Positions 11,468 through 22,244 of a stretch of DNA of 39,078 nt are shown in pieces; within the stretch, counting starts at the first letter, position 1, and every line of letters starts with the position of its first letter. The stretch is from positions 1-39,078 of the forward strand of contig JAUWTM010000018.1 in the NCBI GenBank assembly GCA_030614715.1, written 5' to 3'. The notes under the pieces were generated by a model. It made no database searches, was not told the DNA's origin, and saw only the letters and a program-made list of their open reading frames with translations. A program made the position numbers and the translations under genes. Origin of the DNA: Planctomycetota bacterium (GTDB lineage: Bacteria; JAJVIF01; JAPKYR01).

Positions 11468-11643
11468 ATTTATTTTGTTCTGGTGATACCTGGCAAGGTA
11501 ATTTACACTGAGTCTGGCGATGGATGTCTTTCGTCTCATCAGAAGATACGAGTTTATCCTGAACCGGTAAAACTCTACTCCCAGATCCTTCAATATCTTT
11601 AACCTTTACTTTCCTGACAACCCATTCTACCATTGTGCATGAC

Positions 11644-13389
11644 ATGAGTAAGCAGGCGTCAAATGACCGGTTAAGGAACCACCTGGAGCGAGGATCCGGG
11701 GAGGAATTCCACTCGCTATCACTGCGTCTCCTCCAACAGGCAAACCAGGGAGGTTCAACCAGCGACTTCCTTCAACAATGCACGCAGATCCTATTAGATT
11801 TCACTGGCTGTGATGTGATCGGCGTATATATCGCTGATGATCCAGTATTTTGTCATGGCGAAACCACCAGCAAGCCGGAGGCATCGTTCACGTTCAACGC
11901 AACGCAACCCGGTTTAGAAGGGCAGGAAGGAACAAACGATAACGCAGCGGTCATCGATCAGGGTATTGAAAAGATGCTGTCGGGAAACGAGGAGTTGCAC
12001 TCAGGATACAAGACAGCAAAAGGCAGCTTCTGGACGGGTGACATACGAGAAGTTCTGGATAAGATTAAGTCCGCAACTAATGCTCAACAAATTGACGAAG
12101 TAAGTTACAGCGATATTTACAGGTCTCTGGCACTTATCCCGATTGTTGCCAACGGAAAATCAATCGGCCTTCTGCAAATGAAATGCAGGCAGGAACAATT
12201 CTTTTCCATTGATGATATGGAATTCTACGATGGAATCAGTGATATTCTCGGTTCCGCTCTTGTGAGTCACCGTGCACAGATCGCTCTTGGTGAACGTATT
12301 AAGGAACTTTCCTGCCTGTATGGAATTGCCCAGATTGCCGCCGAACCGGGATATACACTGGATGATGTAATGAGAAATGTCGTTGGGTTGCTTCCTCCAG
12401 CGTGGCAATACCCGGAGATCACAGAAGGCAGAATCCTCCTTGATGGGCATGACTATGCAACCCCTGGTTATACCGGGAATTTGCAGAATCAAACTGCTGA
12501 TATTTTCATCAATGGTAAATGCCGTGGTCATATCGAGGTTGCTTATGCCGAGATAATGCCGGAGCTGGACGAGGGACCATTTCTGAGGGAAGAGCGAAAC
12601 CTGATCGATGCCATATCCAGGCTCATCGCTCAAATAATCGAGAGGAAACAAGCCGAGGATGATCGAATTAAACTCCAGGAGCAGCTAAGGCACGCTGACA
12701 GGCTTGCAACCATCGGGCAACTCGCAGCAGGGGTGGCACATGAGTTCAATGAGCCCCTGGGTAATGTACTCGGTTTTGCCCAACTCATACTCAGAAACGA
12801 AAACCTGCCCGACGATATTAAAGATGATATCGATAAAATAGTAACAGCATCCATGCACGCCCGTGAAGTGGTCAAGAAACTCATGCTGTTCGCCCGTCAA
12901 ATGCCTGCAGAGAAGACCAGGGTTAACATCAATAAAGTAATTGAGGAAGGACTGTATTTCCTTGATGCCCGGTGTATAAAAGCTGGAATCGAGATGGTGC
13001 GGTCACTAACACCCGATCTTCCTGAGATCATGGCTGACCAGTCCCAGATACATCAGGTCCTGGTAAACCTTGTTGTTAATGCGATCCAGGCCATGCCGGA
13101 TGGAGGTACTATTACAATATCCACGGAATGGCTGGATAAATACATATGCCTCAGGGTGACGGATACTGGCGAGGGCATGAGTGATGAAATTCTGGAGCAG
13201 TTATTCGTGCCCTTCTTCACAACGAAAGATGTTGACGAGGGTACCGGATTGGGTCTTCCGGTAGTGCACGGAATAGTCACTTCACATGGCGGATCAATAG
13301 AAGTCTCCAGTCAAGCAGGCAAAGGCAGCAGCTTCGAGATTCAATTACCTATCGCTGGTCCCGATGAAGTAGAGGTGACAGAAAAATGA
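11644..13389 (+). CDS. GAF-domain sensor histidine kinase
   Basis: This is a soluble two-component kinase of about 581 residues. The start is uncertain: GTG 11635 and ATG 11644 are both in frame and neither has a good ribosome site. I prefer the ATG. Residues of about 15-210 look like a GAF domain, and a second sensory region fills about 215-330. A coiled segment then leads to HisKA with the phospho-acceptor His366 in AAGVAHEFNEPLGN. The HATPase domain shows the N box (VLVNLVVNAIQAM), DTGEGM and GTGLGLPVVHGI. There is no transmembrane helix, so it senses a cytoplasmic signal. It overlaps the response regulator gene by ATGA, which makes the pair a cognate system. The NtrB/AtoS-like kinase core fits the NtrC-type partner. 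The signal is unknown. Confidence 0.93.
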   Translation: MSKQASNDRLRNHLERGSGEEFHSLSLRLLQQANQGGSTSDFLQQCTQILLDFTGCDVIGVYIADDPVFCHGETTSKPEASFTFNATQPGLEGQEGTNDNAAVIDQGIEKMLSGNEELHSGYKTAKGSFWTGDIREVLDKIKSATNAQQIDEVSYSDIYRSLALIPIVANGKSIGLLQMKCRQEQFFSIDDMEFYDGISDILGSALVSHRAQIALGERIKELSCLYGIAQIAAEPGYTLDDVMRNVVGLLPPAWQYPEITEGRILLDGHDYATPGYTGNLQNQTADIFINGKCRGHIEVAYAEIMPELDEGPFLREERNLIDAISRLIAQIIERKQAEDDRIKLQEQLRHADRLATIGQLAAGVAHEFNEPLGNVLGFAQLILRNENLPDDIKDDIDKIVTASMHAREVVKKLMLFARQMPAEKTRVNINKVIEEGLYFLDARCIKAGIEMVRSLTPDLPEIMADQSQIHQVLVNLVVNAIQAMPDGGTITISTEWLDKYICLRVTDTGEGMSDEILEQLFVPFFTTKDVDEGTGLGLPVVHGIVTSHGGSIEVSSQAGKGSSFEIQLPIAGPDEVEVTEK

Positions 13390-14738
13390 CGGCACAGACT
13401 GAGAAAGAAAGCATATTGGTTGTAGACGACTCGGAAGCAACACTGGAAGTAATTCAGAGGAACCTGTCAGGGGAAGGTTACCGGGTATTTACAGCGGGCA
13501 ACGTCGGCGACGCAATCACGTTAATCGAAAGTACACCTCTTGACCTCGTCATCACAGATCTGAAGATGCCCAAAGTCAGTGGACTCGACCTGATCAGGCA
13601 TCTGAAAGAAAACTACAAAGACACCGAAGTAATGATGATCACCGGCTATGCTACGGTCGAGGGTGCAGTCGAGGCCGTCAAAGCGGGAGCCGAGGGTTAT
13701 CTATCAAAGCCGTTTACGGACCAGGAACTCCTGAGTGCGGTACAAACAGCTCTGGAGAAATTGCATATACGCAGGACTTCGCAGGTACCGTCATATCTGG
13801 GACCGGCTGAATCTTTTGGAATCATTGGGAATTCCGATGGAATGCTCAGGATGTACTCAGCATTTGAAAAAGCGGCATCCACCCAGGCTACTGTTTTGAT
13901 CTATGGTGAAAGCGGGACCGGCAAAGAACTGGTAGCCAGGGCAATTCATTACAACAGTCCAAGGGCAGCGTCAGCCTTAGTGCCGGTTAATTGCGGCGGT
14001 ATCCCGGAAAGCCTTCTCGAAAGTGAGCTTTTCGGTCATGTGAAAGGTGCTTTCACCGGAGCCACCGAAACTCGAGCCGGTTTCTTTCTTACAGCGGACG
14101 GCGGCACCATCTTCCTGGATGAAATTGGAGAAATGAGCCTGGCGATGCAGGTGAAGCTGCTTCGGGTATTGCAGGACAAAGAGATATGCATGGTAGGTTC
14201 CACAAAACCACGTAAAGTCGATGTCAGGATCCTTGCCGCAACCAATAAGGACCTCCTGAAACTTGTTGAGGATGGCTCTTTCAGGGAAGATCTGTATTAC
14301 CGTTTAAACGTAATTAATATCGCAATACCGCCGCTCAGGGAGAGGGGAGACGATGTCCTGTCCCTGACGAATCATTTCATCAGGGAATTTTCAGAAGTGG
14401 CTGACAAAACCCCGTTATCATTCAGCGACGAAGCATTACGGGTCCTGTTTAATTACTCGTGGCCAGGGAATGTCCGTGAGCTTGAGAATCTTATTCAACG
14501 ACTTGTTGTAATGACCGACGGGGGAGTCATCGATGTGGTTGACTTCCCATCGTTAATGAGATTTTCGGCAAACAGGGCTCTAAACCTTACTAAGAGCCTA
14601 TCTGAGGTCGAAGCGGAACATATTCGGAATGTATTAGCGAGTGTCGATGGGAATAAATCCCAGGCATCAAAGATACTGGGTATCGACCGGAAGACACTCA
14701 GGGAAAAGTTAAAGTCGTACGGATTTAATGGTAAGTAA
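13386..14738 (+). CDS. NtrC-family sigma54-dependent response regulator
   Basis: The 450 residues are in the standard order. The receiver domain (1-125) has Asp14/Asp15, phospho-acceptor Asp58 and Lys108. The AAA+ domain (about 145-375) has Walker A GESGTGKE (174-181), the sigma54-contact loop GAFTGA (221-226) and Walker B TIFLDEI. A Fis-type helix-turn-helix (about 412-447) carries NKSQASKILGIDRKTLREKL. An intact GAFTGA means it should activate sigma54 promoters by ATP-driven remodelling. The gene directly precedes the redox cluster, and a near-consensus -24/-12 element lies 210 bp downstream of its stop. The likely target is therefore the next operon, an inference from position. Confidence 0.95.
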   Translation: MTAQTEKESILVVDDSEATLEVIQRNLSGEGYRVFTAGNVGDAITLIESTPLDLVITDLKMPKVSGLDLIRHLKENYKDTEVMMITGYATVEGAVEAVKAGAEGYLSKPFTDQELLSAVQTALEKLHIRRTSQVPSYLGPAESFGIIGNSDGMLRMYSAFEKAASTQATVLIYGESGTGKELVARAIHYNSPRAASALVPVNCGGIPESLLESELFGHVKGAFTGATETRAGFFLTADGGTIFLDEIGEMSLAMQVKLLRVLQDKEICMVGSTKPRKVDVRILAATNKDLLKLVEDGSFREDLYYRLNVINIAIPPLRERGDDVLSLTNHFIREFSEVADKTPLSFSDEALRVLFNYSWPGNVRELENLIQRLVVMTDGGVIDVVDFPSLMRFSANRALNLTKSLSEVEAEHIRNVLASVDGNKSQASKILGIDRKTLREKLKSYGFNGK

Positions 14739-14948: not shown

Positions 14949-14965
14949 TTGGCACGGTACCTGAA
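14949..14965 (+). promoter_or_regulatory. Sigma54-type (-24/-12) promoter candidate for the redox operon
   Basis: TTGGCACGGTACCTGAA has a perfect -24 element (TTGGCACG) at the correct spacing from a -12 element that reads CTGAA instead of TTGCW. The C of the important GC is an A, which lowers confidence. A start near 14976 would leave a 56-nt leader before the first gene. A sigma54 activator gene lies immediately upstream. Confidence 0.4.
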
Positions 14966-15031: not shown

Positions 15032-15376
15032 TTGTCAGAAGCAAATGTAAGGTTAAAGAAAACAACAAAGGCAAAGAAAGCGAAGCGTAAGAAGGACCAG
15101 CAGGTCCTTGCGATGAAGCCACACGAGGAGTTCCAGGACCTGTGCTCCACCTGTGCTGAAGCCCCCGGTTGTATTCATCGGACACCTGGTTATCCGGTCC
15201 ATCACTGTGAAGAGTGTGAATCGCATGCTGGTGTTTCACCGGTACCAGCCAAGACTGCACCGATCCCCCAGGAGACGCAGACAATGCAGGGGCTTTGCAT
15301 CAATTGTGATGCCCGGGAAACGTGTATGCACTCCTGCGCCGAAGGCGGTGTATGGCACTGCGAGGAGTACTGTTAG
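15032..15376 (+). CDS. Small protein with a duplicated Cys motif (probable metal-binding)
   Basis: The start is TTG 15032, well supported by GAGGAGG a few bases upstream. The 114-residue protein begins with a Lys-rich segment (residues 9-22) and then has two copies of one motif. Cys38-x2-Cys41-x5-Cys47-x11-Cys59 repeats exactly as Cys89-x2-Cys92-x5-Cys98-x11-Cys110. Both copies end in HCEE, the second as GGVWHCEEYC. Further Cys lie at 62, 102 and 114. The pattern suggests a zinc or iron-sulfur site per copy. Similar short Cys proteins occur beside redox enzyme genes, but I cannot name the family. As first gene of the operon it may be an assembly factor or an electron-transfer partner. Confidence 0.75.
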   Translation: MSEANVRLKKTTKAKKAKRKKDQQVLAMKPHEEFQDLCSTCAEAPGCIHRTPGYPVHHCEECESHAGVSPVPAKTAPIPQETQTMQGLCINCDARETCMHSCAEGGVWHCEEYC

Positions 15377-15435
15377 TACTGCCGAAGGTCAATTTAAATT
15401 GAATGAATCGTATCCTTAAAAAAGGGTAGCACGCT

Positions 15436-16284
15436 ATGAGTTCAGATACAGTCAAGGAAATTCTCGACAAGCACAATGAGGAAGGTAACGGCCTGATTTC
15501 AATACTTGAGGACATCCAGGCAAGGTTCAGCTACCTTCCTGAAGATGCCTTAAGGATGGTTGCAGATGCGAAGGAAATGTCCCTGGTTGAGGTTTATGGT
15601 GTAGCAACGTTCTATAAGGCTTTCAGCCTGGAACCCAGGGGCAAGCATTTAATCTCGGCGTGCCTGGGTACCGCATGTCACGTCAGAGAAGCGCCGAATA
15701 TAGTCAAAGAGTTTGAAAGCCAACTTGGAATCAAGGCTGGTGAGACTACTCCTGACAAGGAATTTACTCTGGAAACGGTAGCGTGTCTCGGGGCATGCGC
15801 ACTTGGTCCTATTGTTGTGGTTGATGGACACTACTTTTCGAATGTTGGGCAGACAGAAGTCAAAGGGATCATAGAAGAAGCAAAACAAGGATTCGAAACA
15901 GCAGACATTCAGCAGGATTACCATATCTTTCCTGTCGACGTCAGCTGCCCCAAATGTAATCACAGCCTGATGGATTCTGGACGAGTAATCGATGATTACC
16001 CCTCAATCCGTGTGACAGCGTCCTTTGGAATCAACCATGGATGGCTGCTTTTATCTTCCATGTATGGAAGTTACAAGGTTTTCTCCGAACACGAAATTCC
16101 GACCGAGACCGTGGTTCATTTCTTCTGTCCACACTGCCATGCTGAACTAAAGGGAACCACAAACTGTGTGACATGCAGTGCTCCCATGGTTCCCATGATA
16201 ATCAGTGGCGGAGGAATGTTTCAGATATGTTCACGAAGAGGATGTAAAAACCATATGCTGGATATCAATGGGGTTAATTTATAG
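15436..16284 (+). CDS. NuoE/HydC-like [2Fe-2S] subunit with C-terminal zinc-ribbon extension
   Basis: Residues 1-155 are a thioredoxin-like [2Fe-2S] ferredoxin of the NuoE family, with ligands Cys76, Cys81 (ACLGTACHV), Cys117 and Cys121 (CLGACALGP). NuoE and HydC subunits pass electrons between the flavin subunit and the rest of a complex. The usual length is about 160 residues. This one has an extra 120 residues with Cys pairs at 171/174, 231/234, 244/247 and 265/270, suggesting one or two zinc ribbons. It is followed after 59 bp by the NuoF-like subunit gene with which it should form a dimer. The function of the extension is unknown. Confidence 0.93.
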   Translation: MSSDTVKEILDKHNEEGNGLISILEDIQARFSYLPEDALRMVADAKEMSLVEVYGVATFYKAFSLEPRGKHLISACLGTACHVREAPNIVKEFESQLGIKAGETTPDKEFTLETVACLGACALGPIVVVDGHYFSNVGQTEVKGIIEEAKQGFETADIQQDYHIFPVDVSCPKCNHSLMDSGRVIDDYPSIRVTASFGINHGWLLLSSMYGSYKVFSEHEIPTETVVHFFCPHCHAELKGTTNCVTCSAPMVPMIISGGGMFQICSRRGCKNHMLDINGVNL

Positions 16285-16343
16285 GGATACGGAACTTGAT
16301 CTCGTGTGTAACTACCTAAACAGATAAACAGGAAGTAATATAG

Positions 16344-18194
16344 ATGGAAAACCTCAGGTCAATCGAAGATTTCAGAAGACTCCAGGCGATCTTGCTTGAA
16401 AATACAGACTCTGGTATCCCGACTATCATAATTAATGCGGGTACATGCGGTCAGGCGAGTGGAGCCAATGAAATAATCAGAACGGCGAAGAGCAAGATAC
16501 TTGGGAAACGATTAGTAGACAAAGTTAAGCTCAGGATCACCGGTTGTCATGGTTTCTGCCAGATGGAACCATCGATTCTTATCGAACCCGGCAGGACATT
16601 TTATCCAAACGTTAAACCGAAGGATGTAGAGCGTATTCTCGATGCGGTGCTTTACGATGAGGTCGTTGAAGATCTTCTATACGTTGATCCTTCATCTGGT
16701 GACAGGATCGAGAAACAGGAGGATATTCCATTTTTCAATAAGCAGGCCCGCATTCTCCTTGGCCTGAATGAGAAAGTTGACCCGATTCGTATTTATAATT
16801 ACATCGAAAACGGCGGATATTCATCACTTTGCAGGATCCTTGAGAACAAGCACCCTTGGTGGGTAATAGAACAGGTAAAGATATCAGGACTGCGCGGGCG
16901 TGGGGGAGCAGGTTTTCCAACTGGAATTAAATGGGAACTGCTTGCCAAACAGCAGAACGGTGAAGGTAAATATATTGTGTGTAATGCGGATGAGGGTGAC
17001 CCAGGCGCATACATGGACAGGAGTGTGCTGGAGGGCAGCCCACACAGCATTATTGAGGGCATGATCATTGGTGGATACGCCTCCGGAGCTACTGACGGCG
17101 TAATCTATATACGGAATGAGTATCCCCTGGCAATCAAACACCTGATTATTGCACTTAACCAGGCTCGGACTCTTGGTTTACTCGGTGAGAACATACTTGG
17201 ATCCAACTTCAACTTCGATATCCAGATCGTGAAAGGTGCCGGAGCCTTTGTTTGTGGCGAGGAAACTGCCTTGATGAAGTCTGTCGAGGGTAAAATGGGC
17301 GAACCTCGCCAGCGTCCTCCATTCCCAATTGAAAAAGGGATATACGGTAAACCTACCGTTATCAATAACGTAGAAACCTGGGCCAACATTCCGGTCATTA
17401 TCGACCATGGAGCGGATGAATACGCTAAGACAGGAACTGACGGGAACTCTGGAACCAAGATATTCAGCCTGGTCGGTAAGATAAAGAACACTGGACTGGT
17501 TGAAGTCCCGATGGGCATGACGATCAATGAAATCGTGTTCGACATCGGGGGAGGACCTGTCGGAAAGGCAAAGATAAAAGCCGTTCAGACCGGAGGACCG
17601 TCCGGCGGGTGTATTCCCGCAGATCTGTTTGACCTTCCAATAGATTATGACAGCCTGGCAAAAGTCGGTTCTATTATGGGATCAGGCGGCATGATCGTCA
17701 TGGACGATAACACCTGCATGGTCGATGTTGCGAAGTACTTCATGAATTTCCTGAAGGATGAGTCCTGCGGGAAGTGTTTTACCTGCCGTAAGGGCACTCA
17801 GCGGATGCATGAGATCCTTGATGATATCTCCAGGGGTATTGGAACCCTCGATCAGCTCGATCTCCTCGAAGAACTTGCGTTGGCAGTGAAGGACACGACA
17901 ATGTGCGGCCTGGGCCAGACTGCTTCCAATCCTGTGCTTTCCACGCTGAAATACTTCCGGGATGAATATATCGAGCACATTGAAAACAAGCGATGTCCCG
18001 CCGGAGTCTGCGAAGAACTGATTCAATATTACATAAATGAAGAATGTACCGCGTGTGGGCTCTGCAGAAAAGCATGTCCCGAGGACGCAATTACGGGTGA
18101 AAAGAAAGTTCGGCATGTTATAGACACAGCCAAGTGTATTAAGTGTGGAGCGTGTAAGAGTGTTTGTAAATTCGATGCAGTTGAAACCAGGTAG
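16344..18194 (+). CDS. NuoF/HydB-like NAD(P)H and FMN binding subunit
   Basis: The 616 residues have the HydB-type architecture. An N-terminal thioredoxin-like [2Fe-2S] region (Cys35, Cys68, Cys72 visible) is followed by the NuoF core with the NADH/FMN motif GLRGRGGAGFPTG (182-194) and CNADEGDPGAYMDR. The [4Fe-4S] site is ESCGKCFTCRKG (Cys475, 478, 481) plus Cys521. The C-terminus is a two-cluster ferredoxin domain (about 560-616) with CTACGLCRKACP and CIKCGACKSVC. Plain NuoF lacks the two terminal additions. They are typical of soluble HydABC-type and formate dehydrogenase-linked complexes, which couple NAD(H) and ferredoxin. Expression from a polycistronic message with its neighbours is likely. 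Confidence 0.95.
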   Translation: MENLRSIEDFRRLQAILLENTDSGIPTIIINAGTCGQASGANEIIRTAKSKILGKRLVDKVKLRITGCHGFCQMEPSILIEPGRTFYPNVKPKDVERILDAVLYDEVVEDLLYVDPSSGDRIEKQEDIPFFNKQARILLGLNEKVDPIRIYNYIENGGYSSLCRILENKHPWWVIEQVKISGLRGRGGAGFPTGIKWELLAKQQNGEGKYIVCNADEGDPGAYMDRSVLEGSPHSIIEGMIIGGYASGATDGVIYIRNEYPLAIKHLIIALNQARTLGLLGENILGSNFNFDIQIVKGAGAFVCGEETALMKSVEGKMGEPRQRPPFPIEKGIYGKPTVINNVETWANIPVIIDHGADEYAKTGTDGNSGTKIFSLVGKIKNTGLVEVPMGMTINEIVFDIGGGPVGKAKIKAVQTGGPSGGCIPADLFDLPIDYDSLAKVGSIMGSGGMIVMDDNTCMVDVAKYFMNFLKDESCGKCFTCRKGTQRMHEILDDISRGIGTLDQLDLLEELALAVKDTTMCGLGQTASNPVLSTLKYFRDEYIEHIENKRCPAGVCEELIQYYINEECTACGLCRKACPEDAITGEKKVRHVIDTAKCIKCGACKSVCKFDAVETR

Positions 18195-18225
18195 TAGTAC
18201 TGAGTTCAAACCAGGAACGAAAGCA

Positions 18226-18903
18226 ATGATCAATCTCACAATAAACGGAATAGATACCCAGGTTCATGAGGGTACTACAATACTTGAGGCTGCTAAATTC
18301 CTTGGATTACCCATCCCCACTCTTTGCCACATGGAAGGGCTGTCACCATACGGCGCATGCAGGCTATGTGTGGTTGAAATCGGTGAGGCTCCGCGAAGCA
18401 AGCTGGTTTCGTCATGCACATATCCCGCTACCGAAGGCCTGAAAGTACGTACAGCGACCTCACGGGTTTTGAAAGCCAGGAAGATGGTCATTGAACTGCT
18501 CCTCGCTACCTGTCCACAATCGAAGATCATTCAGGATCTGGCATCGGAGCACCATGTCCGCCAGCAGAGATTCAAACAGGAGCATGAAGACTGCATTTTA
18601 TGCGGACTCTGCACCCGCATATGCGAAGAGCAGATGATGGCTAAGGCAATTGGATTTCGGGGACGTGGTGGTAACCGGAGTATCGGAACCCCATTCGATG
18701 TCGAATCCGAAGAATGCCGGCGATGTGGTGGCTGTATGTATGTCTGTCCGGTATGCCAGTTACGCTGCACGTTTAATGAGCCGGAGAAGGCAATATGCAA
18801 CGGTTGCATAAACCTTGCTGCTCCCTGCGTTGAAAAAGATCAATTTGATGACCTGATGTGCTACATGGATCCCTGTGTAGCCTGTGAAATAGAAAAGGAC
18901 TGA
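18226..18903 (+). CDS. Short NuoG/HydA N-terminal-like iron-sulfur subunit
   Basis: I start it at ATG 18226 because the protein then opens with the normal ferredoxin strand MINLTINGID. An in-frame upstream start would overlap the NuoF-like gene. The 225 residues hold a plant-type [2Fe-2S] domain (Cys34, 45, 48, 64) and a two-cluster ferredoxin domain (Cys123, 126, 129, 133 and 164, 167, 170, 174). The tail is unusually Cys-rich (177, 181, 191, 194, 201, 212, 217, 220). It has no [FeFe]-hydrogenase H-cluster domain and no molybdopterin domain, so the catalytic part must be another protein. The next gene, 20 bp downstream, is the obvious candidate. The tail may hold another cluster that docks to it. 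Confidence 0.9.
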   Translation: MINLTINGIDTQVHEGTTILEAAKFLGLPIPTLCHMEGLSPYGACRLCVVEIGEAPRSKLVSSCTYPATEGLKVRTATSRVLKARKMVIELLLATCPQSKIIQDLASEHHVRQQRFKQEHEDCILCGLCTRICEEQMMAKAIGFRGRGGNRSIGTPFDVESEECRRCGGCMYVCPVCQLRCTFNEPEKAICNGCINLAAPCVEKDQFDDLMCYMDPCVACEIEKD

Positions 18904-18923
18904 CCAGAATCAAGGAGAACAAA

Positions 18924-20507
18924 ATGTCTTATTCGAGAATTAACGCTTCAGCTGCCACATTGACGAAGAACAGGACTGAAGATTCAATATCACCGAATTC
19001 GGGGATGTGCGCCACATGTATCGACGGCTGTATCGGTATGTGCGAGATAGGCAAGTCTGCATACCGTGGCCATGAGGTTATCTATCCTCAGCCGTTCGGA
19101 GTGATTACCACTGCAGCAGAAAAAGAATACCCGGTAGACTATTCACATTTCAACATAATGGGTACAGCTGTCGGTGCACATGGAATCGAAGCCGACAGTG
19201 ATAAGGCAGTGTTCCCTGCTGTCAGTCTGGAAACTACATTCGGTCATGACAATGGCATTAAATTCAAATTGCCAATCATGATTCCGGGTATCGGTTCGAC
19301 AAATATCGCCAAGAACAACTGGGAGGGACTTGCGATTGGAACAGCTCTTTCCGGTACCGGCCTGACCATCGGTGAGAACGTCGTAGGAATGGATCCTGAA
19401 TCTGTCATTAAAAACGGCCGGGTGGTTGATACCGTAGACCTGAAGCGCAGGGTGCAACTGTTTACGGATCACCAGCGTGACGGGTATGGAGCGATCGTAG
19501 TACAGGCGAACATCGAGGACACGCGCCTGGGAGTACAGGAATATGCCATTGAGAAACTTGGCGTTCAATGCGTAGAGTTAAAATGGGGACAGGGTGCGAA
19601 AAATATCGGGGGCGAGGTTAAGATCAAGGACCTTAAGAAAGCCCAGTTCCTGTATGAGCGTGGCTATATTGTGCTGCCTGATCCTACCGATCCCAGTGTG
19701 ATCGATGCATTCGAGAAGGGTGCATTCACTGAGTTCGAAAGGCATTCACGTGTAGGAATGGTCACCGAGGAATCGTTTGCGCAAAGGGTTGAAGAACTTC
19801 GAGCTGCCGGAGCTAAATATGTCTTCTTAAAGACTGGAGCATACCGTCCAGCAGATCTGGCCCGGGCTGTCAAGTTTTCCTCAAAATACAAAATTGACCT
19901 TCTGACAGTCGACGGTGCCGGTGGCGGCACAGGCATGAGTCCGTGGCGAATGATGAATGAGTGGGGCATGCCTCCAGTGGAAATTCACTCTCTTCTTTAC
20001 CACTATGCCAAGCGTCTTGACGATGCTGGTGAGTATGTTCCTCCGTTAACCGTTGCTGGTGGATTCACCTTCGAGGATCAGATGTTCAAGGGACTGGCCT
20101 TGTGCGCACCTTATTCAAAGCTTGTGGGTATGGCAAGGAGTCCTATCGCCGCTGCAATGGTTGGTAAAACCATCGGCAAGACAATCGATGAGCACCAGGT
20201 CCCCGTTTATGTTGAGCGCTTCGGACATTCCATAGATAAAATATTCGTAACCGCCTCTCACCTCAGGAAAGAGCTGGGTGATGATGAATTTGAAAGGATC
20301 CCAACGGGCGCAATCGGACTGTATACGTACTACGAACGCCTTGCACAGGGTTTACGCCAGATGATGGCTGGCAGCCGCAAGTTCGCCCTTGAGTACATGT
20401 CCCGTGATGATCTGGCGGCACTGACCCCTGAGGCTGCTGAGATAAGCGGTATTAAGTACGTAATGGATGTCGATAAGGACGAGGTTGATAAAATCCTGGG
20501 TTGCTAG
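18924..20507 (+). CDS. FMN-binding glutamate-synthase-like protein (GltS domain), substrate unknown
   Basis: A ribosome site (AAGGAG) precedes the ATG. The 527 residues consist of a Cys-rich N-terminus and a TIM-barrel GltS domain with FMN-site sequences such as VDGAGGGTGMSPWR and LTVAGGF. The N-terminus has Cys29-x2-Cys32-x3-Cys36-x3-Cys40, likely an iron-sulfur site. True glutamate synthases have a glutaminase domain and, after the barrel, a Cys motif for a [3Fe-4S] cluster. Neither is visible here: the corresponding stretch reads LCAPYSKLVGMARSPIAAAM. I therefore do not call it glutamate synthase. Its place as the last gene after NuoE-, NuoF- and NuoG-like subunits suggests it is the catalytic flavoprotein of that complex. 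A terminator follows. Confidence 0.9.
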   Translation: MSYSRINASAATLTKNRTEDSISPNSGMCATCIDGCIGMCEIGKSAYRGHEVIYPQPFGVITTAAEKEYPVDYSHFNIMGTAVGAHGIEADSDKAVFPAVSLETTFGHDNGIKFKLPIMIPGIGSTNIAKNNWEGLAIGTALSGTGLTIGENVVGMDPESVIKNGRVVDTVDLKRRVQLFTDHQRDGYGAIVVQANIEDTRLGVQEYAIEKLGVQCVELKWGQGAKNIGGEVKIKDLKKAQFLYERGYIVLPDPTDPSVIDAFEKGAFTEFERHSRVGMVTEESFAQRVEELRAAGAKYVFLKTGAYRPADLARAVKFSSKYKIDLLTVDGAGGGTGMSPWRMMNEWGMPPVEIHSLLYHYAKRLDDAGEYVPPLTVAGGFTFEDQMFKGLALCAPYSKLVGMARSPIAAAMVGKTIGKTIDEHQVPVYVERFGHSIDKIFVTASHLRKELGDDEFERIPTGAIGLYTYYERLAQGLRQMMAGSRKFALEYMSRDDLAALTPEAAEISGIKYVMDVDKDEVDKILGC

Positions 20508-20605
20508 GCTGCATGCCCATGATCTCAGGATTCAGATAGAGATAGAATCTACAGACGCAGGATTATAATTGAGACAAAATCTGACACGCTGTTTATACAG
20601 CCTTG

Positions 20606-20640
20606 GCCGGGGTAGATGGAACTGCCCCGGTCATTTTGTT
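20606..20640 (+). terminator. Terminator at the end of the redox operon
   Basis: GCCGGGG and CCCCGGT form a GC-rich stem with a 12-nt loop at 20606-20631. It is followed on the plus strand by TCATTTTGTTATTT. The opposite strand lacks a T-run, so it serves the plus-strand operon ending at 20507 better than the convergent asparaginase gene. Confidence 0.65.
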
Positions 20641-20678: not shown

Positions 20679-22244
20679 CTACCGGCTGTCCACAGTGCTT
20701 CCTGAGTAAATACAGAACTCCGCACTCTCCCATTTAAATGATCCTCTGGAATCCTCGTCAATTGATACTGTAAAAGATACCTTCATCCCGGGTTTGATCA
20801 GCTTTCGGGCTACCCTCGTTACATTCAACGATACAATAGACGGTTCGTCATTCACCATTCTCAGAAACTCACCGGCGTAATTCGGATTTTTATCATCAAG
20901 TGTGTCAGAAGATCCCAGATTAAGAAAAACCCTGATTGCCACTGGTTCCTTGAGCGGATGATTTTCAACTTTGGCATTTCTGAATCTTAATACTGCCGAG
21001 CTGATTTTCCAGCCCGTCCAGTCACCGGGCAGGATATCGACTGCCGCCAGTCGTACCCGATGTTGTGAAGCATTAAGTTCGTTCTTTTCATGTTTTCTGA
21101 AACGAGTTGTGAAGACCGACAGAGACATCTCACCTTCAAGGTCCTGCTGCATGAGGTCGGCCACCTCATTCTCAGAAAGATCCTCGTCTCCAAGCAGAAC
21201 CATCATCTTGCACAACGCAGCCTCATCAGTAATATCCAGGCCCGAGATAATACCTATTTCCAGGAGTTTAGCGCTGCTTTCGTATAATCCAAGATCAACC
21301 ATGCCCCTCGTGCACTGTGTAACATTCTGGATTATCACTCCTCTCTCTACCGCTTTCCTGAATGGTTCCAGGAAATCCGGACTAGTTGGTATATTTCCCG
21401 ATCCGAATGAGCAAAGGATTATCCCTCTCAAGCTTGGAGCATTGATCAGACGCTGTACGACATCGGTGTCCTGGATGCCCGGGAATACATTGAACGATAA
21501 TACATTCGAGTCCATATGGCGTCGAATTCTGAACGACTGGGTCGGCATCTGACGAATGTGCCTGGTATCGATATGTATTTTATCTCCCGCCCATCCAAGG
21601 CGAGGGTAATTCGGGCTGGTGTATGCGCTGTAACCACTGGCGTCCCCTTTTATACAACGATTACCCCTGTAAAGTTCATCACGAAAGAAAATACATACCT
21701 CCGGTACGACAGGAATTCCGGAGTCCTTGGGATTGGCAATTCTCAGGGAGGTGATAAGGTTCTGTTCAGCGTCGTTCCTTGCCTGGTATAAATGGCTCCG
21801 CTGTGCACCTGTCAGGATAACCGGTTTTCCGAGGTTCACCAGCATGAATGAAAGAACCGATGCTGTATACACCATTGTATCGGTGCCGTGGAGAATCACA
21901 AATCCTTCATAATTATCGTAGTTCTCTTCGATCTTCTCCGCCATCATGCGCCACTCGAGCGGTCCAATGTTGCATGAATCGGTAGGCGCGGGGAAACTCC
22001 ATCCTGACACCGGGAAGTCAAGGTCATTCAAGGCCGGTGTAAGTTCGAAAAGTTCATCCCATTGAATAACGGTCCTCGGGCTGTCAGGATCGTTCGGGTC
22101 CCGTGGTTTCGATCCGATCGTCCCGCCCGTGTAAATTACAAATACACCTTTATTAGTTTCAGTGTCCAATAACAGCTCCTTCTGTAACCTTGTTGGATCC
22201 TTACCTGAGAAGGATAACATTATTCTCAGGTTATGGAAATCCAT
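20679..22244 (-). CDS. L-asparaginase-family amidohydrolase with extra C-terminal domain
   Basis: Residues of about 33-375 are a type I (cytosolic) asparaginase fold: YTGGTIG with nucleophile Thr42, HGTDTM with Thr121-Asp122, and the following VILTGAQ. These enzymes hydrolyse asparagine to aspartate and ammonia. There is no signal peptide. The start is uncertain (ATG 22244 or ATG 22220), and neither has a clear ribosome site. About 140 extra residues at the C-terminus (from about 380) are beta-rich with no motif I recognise; type I enzymes are usually 330-350 residues. The extension might bind a partner or alter oligomerisation. Related proteins include the archaeal GatD amidotransferase subunit, but a GatE partner is not next to it. 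Confidence 0.9.
   Translation of the reverse strand: MDFHNLRIMLSFSGKDPTRLQKELLLDTETNKGVFVIYTGGTIGSKPRDPNDPDSPRTVIQWDELFELTPALNDLDFPVSGWSFPAPTDSCNIGPLEWRMMAEKIEENYDNYEGFVILHGTDTMVYTASVLSFMLVNLGKPVILTGAQRSHLYQARNDAEQNLITSLRIANPKDSGIPVVPEVCIFFRDELYRGNRCIKGDASGYSAYTSPNYPRLGWAGDKIHIDTRHIRQMPTQSFRIRRHMDSNVLSFNVFPGIQDTDVVQRLINAPSLRGIILCSFGSGNIPTSPDFLEPFRKAVERGVIIQNVTQCTRGMVDLGLYESSAKLLEIGIISGLDITDEAALCKMMVLLGDEDLSENEVADLMQQDLEGEMSLSVFTTRFRKHEKNELNASQHRVRLAAVDILPGDWTGWKISSAVLRFRNAKVENHPLKEPVAIRVFLNLGSSDTLDDKNPNYAGEFLRMVNDEPSIVSLNVTRVARKLIKPGMKVSFTVSIDEDSRGSFKWESAEFCIYSGSTVDSR

Follow-up and report, generated by a model that had tools for sequence, protein, structure and literature searches.

In a 39,078-nucleotide stretch of DNA from a Planctomycetota bacterium (hereafter the window; GenBank assembly GCA_030614715.1, contig JAUWTM010000018.1, our contig C190), five closely spaced genes at positions 15,032 to 20,507 of the forward strand join an electron-transfer core of the HydABC type to a flavin mononucleotide (FMN) protein of the glutamate synthase (GltS) family. 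They encode, in order, a small protein with eight cysteines in two CxxCx5Cx11C repeats (15032..15376); BfuC, a NuoE-like [2Fe-2S] subunit (15436..16284; PF01257, E 2.6e-47); BfuB, a NuoF-like subunit for FMN and nicotinamide adenine dinucleotide (NAD(H)), in a ferredoxin form that ends in two [4Fe-4S] sites (16344..18194); BfuA, a short NuoG-like subunit with Fer2_4 and Fer4_7 domains (18226..18903, within an open reading frame, or ORF, that begins at 18145); and the GltS-like protein, the candidate catalytic subunit (18924..20507; PF01645 at 49.8 bits, the cut-off being 20.4). The intergenic gaps are 59, 59, 31 and 20 bp. The original prediction for this DNA had described NuoE-, NuoF- and short NuoG-like subunits with additional ferredoxin domains and a GltS-like gene tightly linked to the NuoG-like one, but no subunit of a hydrogenase or formate dehydrogenase; all of these parts were recovered on the forward strand, the last junction running from 18903 to 18924.

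Relatives were drawn from a scan of GTDB genomes for the GltS-like protein, which returned at least 593 pattern matches and at least 559 confirmed relatives. The 80 loci kept are the best matches to an alignment of Bfu-linked GltS proteins, and therefore describe that clade and not the whole GltS-like family; all come from metagenome-assembled genomes (MAGs) of Planctomycetota, Zixibacteria, Myxococcota/Deltaproteobacteria, Bacteroidota, Ignavibacteria, Acidobacteriota, Calditrichota and others. A first survey of 60 sampled genomes had given 15 with a match, including the window's own genome (4.29 Mb in 254 contigs, 87% complete) and one weak match (G053), and 14 relatives' loci from that survey were fetched with their flanks for reading of neighbouring genes. 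No relative was found among viral contigs.

Over its length, BfuB matches the B subunits of solved HydABC/NfnABC-type enzymes (HydB, NfnB and NiFe-hydrogenase B; E 7.9e-220 to 1.2e-189), with PF01512, PF10589 and Fer4 above cut-off and SLBB, at 21.0 bits, below its cut-off of 27. The main text of the published survey of the Bfu family (Schut et al., 2022; PMC9304861), whose InterPro domain codes are compared here as Pfam names, gives BfuB a Complex1_51K FMN domain, SLBB, NADH_4Fe-4S and ferredoxin-type [4Fe-4S], BfuC as NuoE-like, and BfuA with [2Fe-2S] and [4Fe-4S] ferredoxin domains, a set that the window's three subunits show. It describes the ligands of the B2 cluster as three cysteines and a histidine, with cysteine or threonine at a further position, and gives them as conserved across Bfu enzymes, the histidine being absent from non-bifurcating homologues. 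In the window these ligands are C458, H545, C551 and C556, invariant in 71 of 71 relatives, and the further position, 496, is serine; relatives have serine (39), threonine (27), cysteine (3) or alanine (2). The pairing of InterPro codes with Pfam names is one that we take to be correct. At the N-terminal [2Fe-2S] B5 site, C68 and C72 are present in 74 of 77 aligned BfuB rows, window included (the rest are gaps), C35 in 45 of 77, and there is no fourth conserved cysteine. Having only two well-conserved cysteines in residues 30 to 75 is at odds with the conservation of B5 in all Bfu enzymes stated in the same main text (PMC9304861). StnB, a subunit of a bifurcating enzyme, also lacks two of the four N-terminal cysteines.

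BfuA probably starts at the ATG at 18226, which yields 225 residues, the commonest length among relatives, and consists of a [2Fe-2S] domain, two [4Fe-4S] sites and a cysteine-rich C-terminal tail. Its 12 ferredoxin-type cysteines are conserved in all 79 aligned relatives; the tail contributes eight more (C177, C181, C191, C194, C201, C212, C217 and C220), each at a frequency of at least 0.97 in the same 79, which may bind further clusters. This tail begins at residue 204 of the ORF, the three best alignments to solved chains stopping at 219, 206 and 203, and a similar one is found in the basal relatives L022, L023 and L027. Between the [2Fe-2S] and dicluster domains there is a single cysteine (C96) and no His/Cys-rich motif, which fits the lack of the A3 and A5 clusters in Type 2 Bfu enzymes, judged against what we take to be the A3 motif. 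In three relatives (L074, L075 and L097), BfuA sits in a much larger ORF (562, 810 and 1244 residues from its most upstream start), which could be either a gene fusion or just an extended open frame. BfuC carries a Zn-ribbon-like C-terminal extension with eight cysteines that the original prediction had passed over; these and C76, C81, C117 and C121 occur at 0.99 or more in 67 relatives, and the extension is missing from two basal ones, L023 and L027. The small protein has no Pfam or NCBIfam match; its eight cysteines occur at 0.98 or more in 43 relatives, and it is probably an accessory metal or Fe-S protein.

By these comparisons, namely the matches of BfuB to solved B chains, its B2 ligands and a BfuA without an A3-type site (as in Type 2), the core is of a known kind, that of the Bfu family as set out in the main text of PMC9304861. 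With the Type 2 enzymes described there (Wor-Bfu, Por-Bfu, Codh-Bfu and others) it shares the BfuBC core, the B2 ligands, a short BfuA without A3 and a separate catalytic subunit beside BfuA, but it differs from them in its GltS-family FMN barrel as catalytic subunit, its cysteine-rich BfuA tail and its Zn-ribbon BfuC. The original prediction was right about the core and its association with GltS, but the core itself is not new, and the prediction missed a second, NADP-type form of BfuB, described below.

The GltS-like protein and its linkage to the core

The last gene product aligns with the FMN barrel of GltS (hhalign probability 97.7) and has the QGAK and GGTGxSP motifs, which it shares with E. 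coli GltB/GltD and archaeal-type GltS. In contrast to GltB/GltD, it comes with NuoE/F/G-type partners, has neither a glutaminase domain nor a [3Fe-4S] motif, and gains an N-terminal four-cysteine site (CxxCx3Cx3C) that is invariant, also in members that are not linked to Bfu genes. The Cx5Cx4C motif of the [3Fe-4S] cluster was present in E. coli GltB and in four of the five other canonical segments taken. Pfam found no further GltB domain in the GltS-like protein, and no sequence in the PDB matched it at E values up to 1, even with a 15-member profile. On this evidence the protein is far from canonical GltS.

Plus-strand homologues of BfuA, BfuB and BfuC are present in 79, 72 and 67 of the 80 loci, and a homologue of the small Cys protein in 44, mostly upstream of BfuC. 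BfuA adjoins GltS in 79 of 80 loci, always within about 175 bp, the exception lying at a contig edge; in the nine loci without a well-scored BfuB, the GltS ORF starts no more than 2.4 kb from a contig end. Because the same gene order recurs across phyla, the arrangement is not due to chance.

The 14 fetched loci reach beyond this clade. Six have Bfu genes beside GltS (65-90% identical to the GltS-like protein of the window), BfuC not being seen in one of them (L022), and eight have no Bfu genes beside their GltS-like gene (43-60% identical), although in one of the eight (L030) the contig ends just upstream of GltS and a partner could be missed. A quick tree built from 92 GltS-like proteins places all Bfu-linked members in a single clade (Shimodaira-Hasegawa-like approximate likelihood ratio test, SH-aLRT, 100) with the eight unlinked ones outside it; a program warning marks the placements of the long-branched L026 and of L031/L032 as unsure. 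The proposed adjacency of GltS to NuoEFG-like genes thus holds within the Bfu-linked clade but can be lacking in more distant GltS-like genes.

Two forms of BfuB

Downstream of C556, BfuB falls into two sharply separate length classes: 25 of the 77 rows (the window and 24 relatives) continue for 60-77 residues with two [4Fe-4S] sites, whereas the other 52, all relatives, continue from the same junction for 486-563 residues. The long tail consists of Fer4_20 and Pyr_redox_2 domains in the tested case (L020), where it matches NfnA/StnC over residues of about 102-595 of these A/C subunits; the 52 long tails are 33-38% identical to E. coli GltD, and 51 of them have nucleotide-binding motifs. Both forms share the core cysteines and histidine from residue 304 to 556. 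Judging by its domains, the long form would use NADP(H) instead of ferredoxin.

A careful tree of the BfuB core (76 rows, the short fragment L107 having been dropped) requires 10 changes of form, and 8-11 in 90% of bootstrap trees; at least five are forced by well-supported branches, and a single origin appeared in none of the trees of a bootstrap that had not fully settled. A quick BfuB tree gave 11 changes, five of them forced, and a quick GltS tree gave 16 over the 75 rows of known form, at least six forced; treating nine rows of unknown form on the GltS tree as a separate group gave forced numbers of 9 and 7. These trees indicate that lineages have repeatedly switched the output part of BfuB between a ferredoxin type and an NADPH type. 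The switches may not all be alike: L103 (long) groups with L084 and L087 (both short) on the GltS and the BfuB trees, which looks like an exchange of the BfuB tail alone. On the GltS tree, two short-form members, the window and L019, join the long-form L033, and the long-form L108 joins the short-form L110; the BfuB tree shows neither grouping, as if the whole BfuB gene had been replaced.

According to the main text of PMC9304861, every BfuB has the B3/B4 ferredoxin domain; it is kept in the window but replaced in 52 of 77 rows. A GltD/NfnL-like FAD/NADP module next to a NuoE + NuoF core is likewise found in Stn/NfnABC/Nfn-Bfu enzymes (text of PMC7483475; PDB 8oh5, 9bov and 9n5u), but there it lies inside the NuoG-like subunit and the ferredoxin domain of BfuB is kept, as seen for Stn; here the GltD-like module replaces that domain, and a GltS-like subunit is added. 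Although the Bfu family itself is known, the searched literature yielded no mention of a GltS catalytic partner, of such a BfuA tail or of repeated switching between ferredoxin and NADP forms: the main text of PMC9304861 has no match for glt or glutamate, and a phrase search of the literature, with supplements and figures outside its reach, found no paper on a bifurcating glutamate synthase or glutamate dehydrogenase.

Flanking genes and control region

Upstream of the cluster, and on the same strand, lie two regulatory genes outside the enzyme, encoding a GAF-domain sensor histidine kinase (11635..13389; HATPase_c, HisKA and GAF by Pfam) and a sigma-54-dependent response regulator of NtrC/AtoC type (13386..14738; Sigma54_activat, Response_reg and HTH_8), which overlap at 13386-13389. 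A plus-strand homologue of the response regulator is found in 41 of 80 loci and of the kinase in up to 37, a few of these being weak or distant kinases. The pattern scan for sigma-54 sites found none in the upstream region of the window's cluster; a weak, speculative -24-like element on the plus strand upstream of the Cys protein (TGGCACG, 14950..14965), with a mismatched -12 GC, is only half a match to such a promoter. Among relatives, the pattern occurs between the regulator and BfuC in 11 of 67 loci, against about 1.6 sites expected in 54.6 kb from the overall rate (32 matches in 1.09 Mb), and this excess suggests sigma-54 control for some of them.

Past the GltS stop is a plus-strand, terminator-like hairpin (20604..20633; 12 pairs, eight of them G-C, then a T-rich tail), assigned by a consensus match of which the region has 10 against 7.1 expected. 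Convergent to the GltS-like gene, on the minus strand, is a gene for an asparaginase/GatD-like protein with a C-terminal extension (20679-22244). The protein could release ammonia, and one of its kind is also encoded next to the cluster in the close relative L019; no homologue was hit in the 80 loci. Near Bfu-GltS in 13 of the 80 loci (L045, L059, L064, L071, L104, L106 and others) are genes for proteins of 414-1000 residues that form one BLAST cluster and that lie directly next to Bfu-GltS in seven cases; the single member tested, from L064, has a pyruvate phosphate dikinase N-terminal domain.

Candidate substrate and reaction

The subunits are likely to form one complex. We propose, with less than even confidence, that it is a soluble bifurcating or confurcating complex of the Bfu family (HydABC type) in which a diverged glutamate synthase barrel serves as the substrate subunit. 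The original prediction had left the substrate unnamed; the genomic context points to glutamate and 2-oxoglutarate. Nine of the 80 loci have glutamate dehydrogenase genes beside the cluster, 10 genes in all, each detected by phmmer and nine of them also checked by Pfam. In eight of these loci the gene is on the strand of the cluster and within about 0.5 kb; in L090 and L096 it stands between the Cys protein and BfuC, while the L082 gene lies 3 kb off on the opposite strand. Only 0.52 such loci would be expected (1.09 Mb at 1.9 matches per 4 Mb, a rate set from a search of 49 Bfu-GltS genomes for ELFV dehydrogenase), for a Poisson p of 5e-9 under independence, weakened by the relatedness of the loci. 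Moreover, three of the eight unlinked GltS-like genes adjoin nitrogen-type regulators: a GAF-ANTAR regulator in L024 (7517-8209, amid a series of glutamine amidotransferase genes) and in L025 (7715-8410), and an NrpR-type regulator in L029 (6568-7839), which suggests nitrogen control of this outgroup family. Finally, three genomes with a Bfu-linked GltS, G076 (L053), G087 (L072; CP070718.1, titled a chromosome) and G094 (L081), have glutamine synthetase and no match to PF00310, PF00208 or PF05088; the Bfu-linked GltS is the only PF01645 match in G076 and G087, and G094 has two further weak, partial ones. The same three domains were not matched in G050 (98% complete, with an unlinked GltS-like gene), which has glutamine synthetase and one further weak PF01645 match. 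Reading of ORF lists by eye around glutamine synthetase (G000, G050, G087 and G094) and glutamate dehydrogenase (G000) showed no link. From this context, 2-oxoglutarate plus ammonia, interconverted with glutamate, is a plausible though tentative substrate pair.

In such a complex, NAD(H) would react at the FMN of BfuB, and ferredoxin (Fd; in the window form) or NADP(H) (at a GltD-like tail) at its C-terminus, with the BfuA tail, the N-terminal four-cysteine site of GltS and the GltS FMN forming the putative wire to the site where 2-oxoglutarate and ammonia would be converted to glutamate or released from it. A natural overall equation would read 2 NADH + 2-oxoglutarate + NH4+ + Fd(ox) or NADP+ -> glutamate + Fd(red) or NADPH. 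The glutamate couple has a potential of about -0.12 V; because this is above NAD(H), NADH could pass electrons to it and also to a low-potential carrier, whose reduction would be paid for by the drop in potential towards glutamate. The reverse could also occur, glutamate and reduced Fd together reducing NAD+. That the cluster specifies an electron-bifurcating glutamate synthase, with glutamate synthesis or oxidation as third half-reaction of a HydABC-type core whose output arm has repeatedly changed from ferredoxin to NADP(H) or back at a constant junction, is, as a whole, possible but rather unlikely.

Several observations weigh against the glutamate assignment. The [3Fe-4S] motif is absent from all 15 aligned GltS-like proteins, no glutaminase domain was found in the protein, and the loop after QGAK is changed, so that the substrate may have changed as well. 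The structure model is modest (predicted local distance difference test score, pLDDT, 68.6), falling below 50 at residues 1-99 and at the QGAK (223-226) and GGTGMSP (332-348) loops, and fold searches with it list FMN hydroxyacid oxidases, IPP isomerases and similar barrels, with GltS structures not among the matches listed. No glutamate dehydrogenase gene lies by the cluster in 71 of 80 loci, that of the window's genome being on another contig, and for five of the eight unlinked loci none of the neighbouring genes tested was of a nitrogen type. ELFV dehydrogenase was detected in 45 of the 49 Bfu-GltS genomes searched, and most hosts therefore need no further glutamate-forming enzyme; domain absence in MAGs is weak evidence. 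The near-complete linkage of GltS to Bfu genes stems partly from selecting the best matches to a Bfu-linked alignment. In addition, to our knowledge, third substrates of most characterised Bfu enzymes do not lie above NAD(H), as the glutamate couple does.

Two arguments were set aside. An ordinary glutamate synthase acting with a glutaminase subunit does not fit the window, where the [3Fe-4S] motif is missing and no GATase_2 was detected in the genome (87% complete). Nor can the scarcity of GltB be taken as proof of function: GATase_2 was found in eight of the 49 Bfu-GltS genomes (seven at full length). In a sample of 116 bacterial relatives it was found in 52, of which 37 had an E value under 1e-45, but the samples are unmatched for taxonomy, the larger one includes G000 and other Bfu-GltS genomes, and ELFV dehydrogenase is nearly always present in the Bfu-GltS genomes, so that the difference is weak evidence.

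It is quite possible, if doubtful, that the complex is a genuine Bfu-type enzyme with a GltS-like catalytic partner that acts on some other small acid, imine or amide, as the lost [3Fe-4S] motif, the changed loop, the folds listed and the ELFV dehydrogenase of most hosts would allow; the glutamate dehydrogenase genes by the cluster, the nitrogen-type neighbours of three outgroup genes and the genomes without other detected glutamate-forming enzymes speak for glutamate instead. The operon could also encode two enzymes under shared regulation, with BfuABC as an NADH:Fd/NADP oxidoreductase alongside a ferredoxin-dependent glutamate synthase that works independently of it. GltS-like genes without Bfu in eight of the 14 fetched loci (one cut by a contig end) imply that the GltS-like family can work alone, and a core of the NADP form could act as a transhydrogenase. 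Such a division is nevertheless unlikely, since BfuA itself lacks a catalytic domain, 79 relatives conserve its tail and three basal BfuA proteins have it too, the three best alignments to solved chains stop at ORF residues 219, 206 and 203 where the tail starts at 204, and the linkage holds across many phyla. Least probable, and very unlikely in our view, is a core that does not bifurcate and merely supplies the GltS flavin with electrons taken from NADH and Fd/NADPH: the potential of the glutamate couple makes bifurcation unnecessary for glutamate synthesis, and the N-terminal site of BfuB has at most three conserved cysteines instead of the four of B5, but the B2 Cys/His ligands, reportedly missing from non-bifurcating homologues, are invariant in both BfuB forms, and the bifurcating StnB is also two N-terminal cysteines short.

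With glutamate as the candidate substrate, the cluster suggests that glutamate metabolism can be linked to energy-rich electron carriers by a route not yet described. In the main text of the 2022 survey, 17 BfuB clades were left without an assigned function (PMC9304861); against this backdrop, Bfu-GltS is a widespread class with a concrete candidate substrate. The ferredoxin/NADP switch on a conserved core makes it testable whether the low-potential branch of the flavin/Fe-S bifurcation site is fixed to ferredoxin, and, if the enzyme is indeed a bifurcating glutamate synthase, it would provide a natural test of how that site sets the potential of this branch. Were glutamate the substrate, uncultured bacteria from many phyla would have a tie between energy conservation and the assimilation of ammonia or the breakdown of amino acids.

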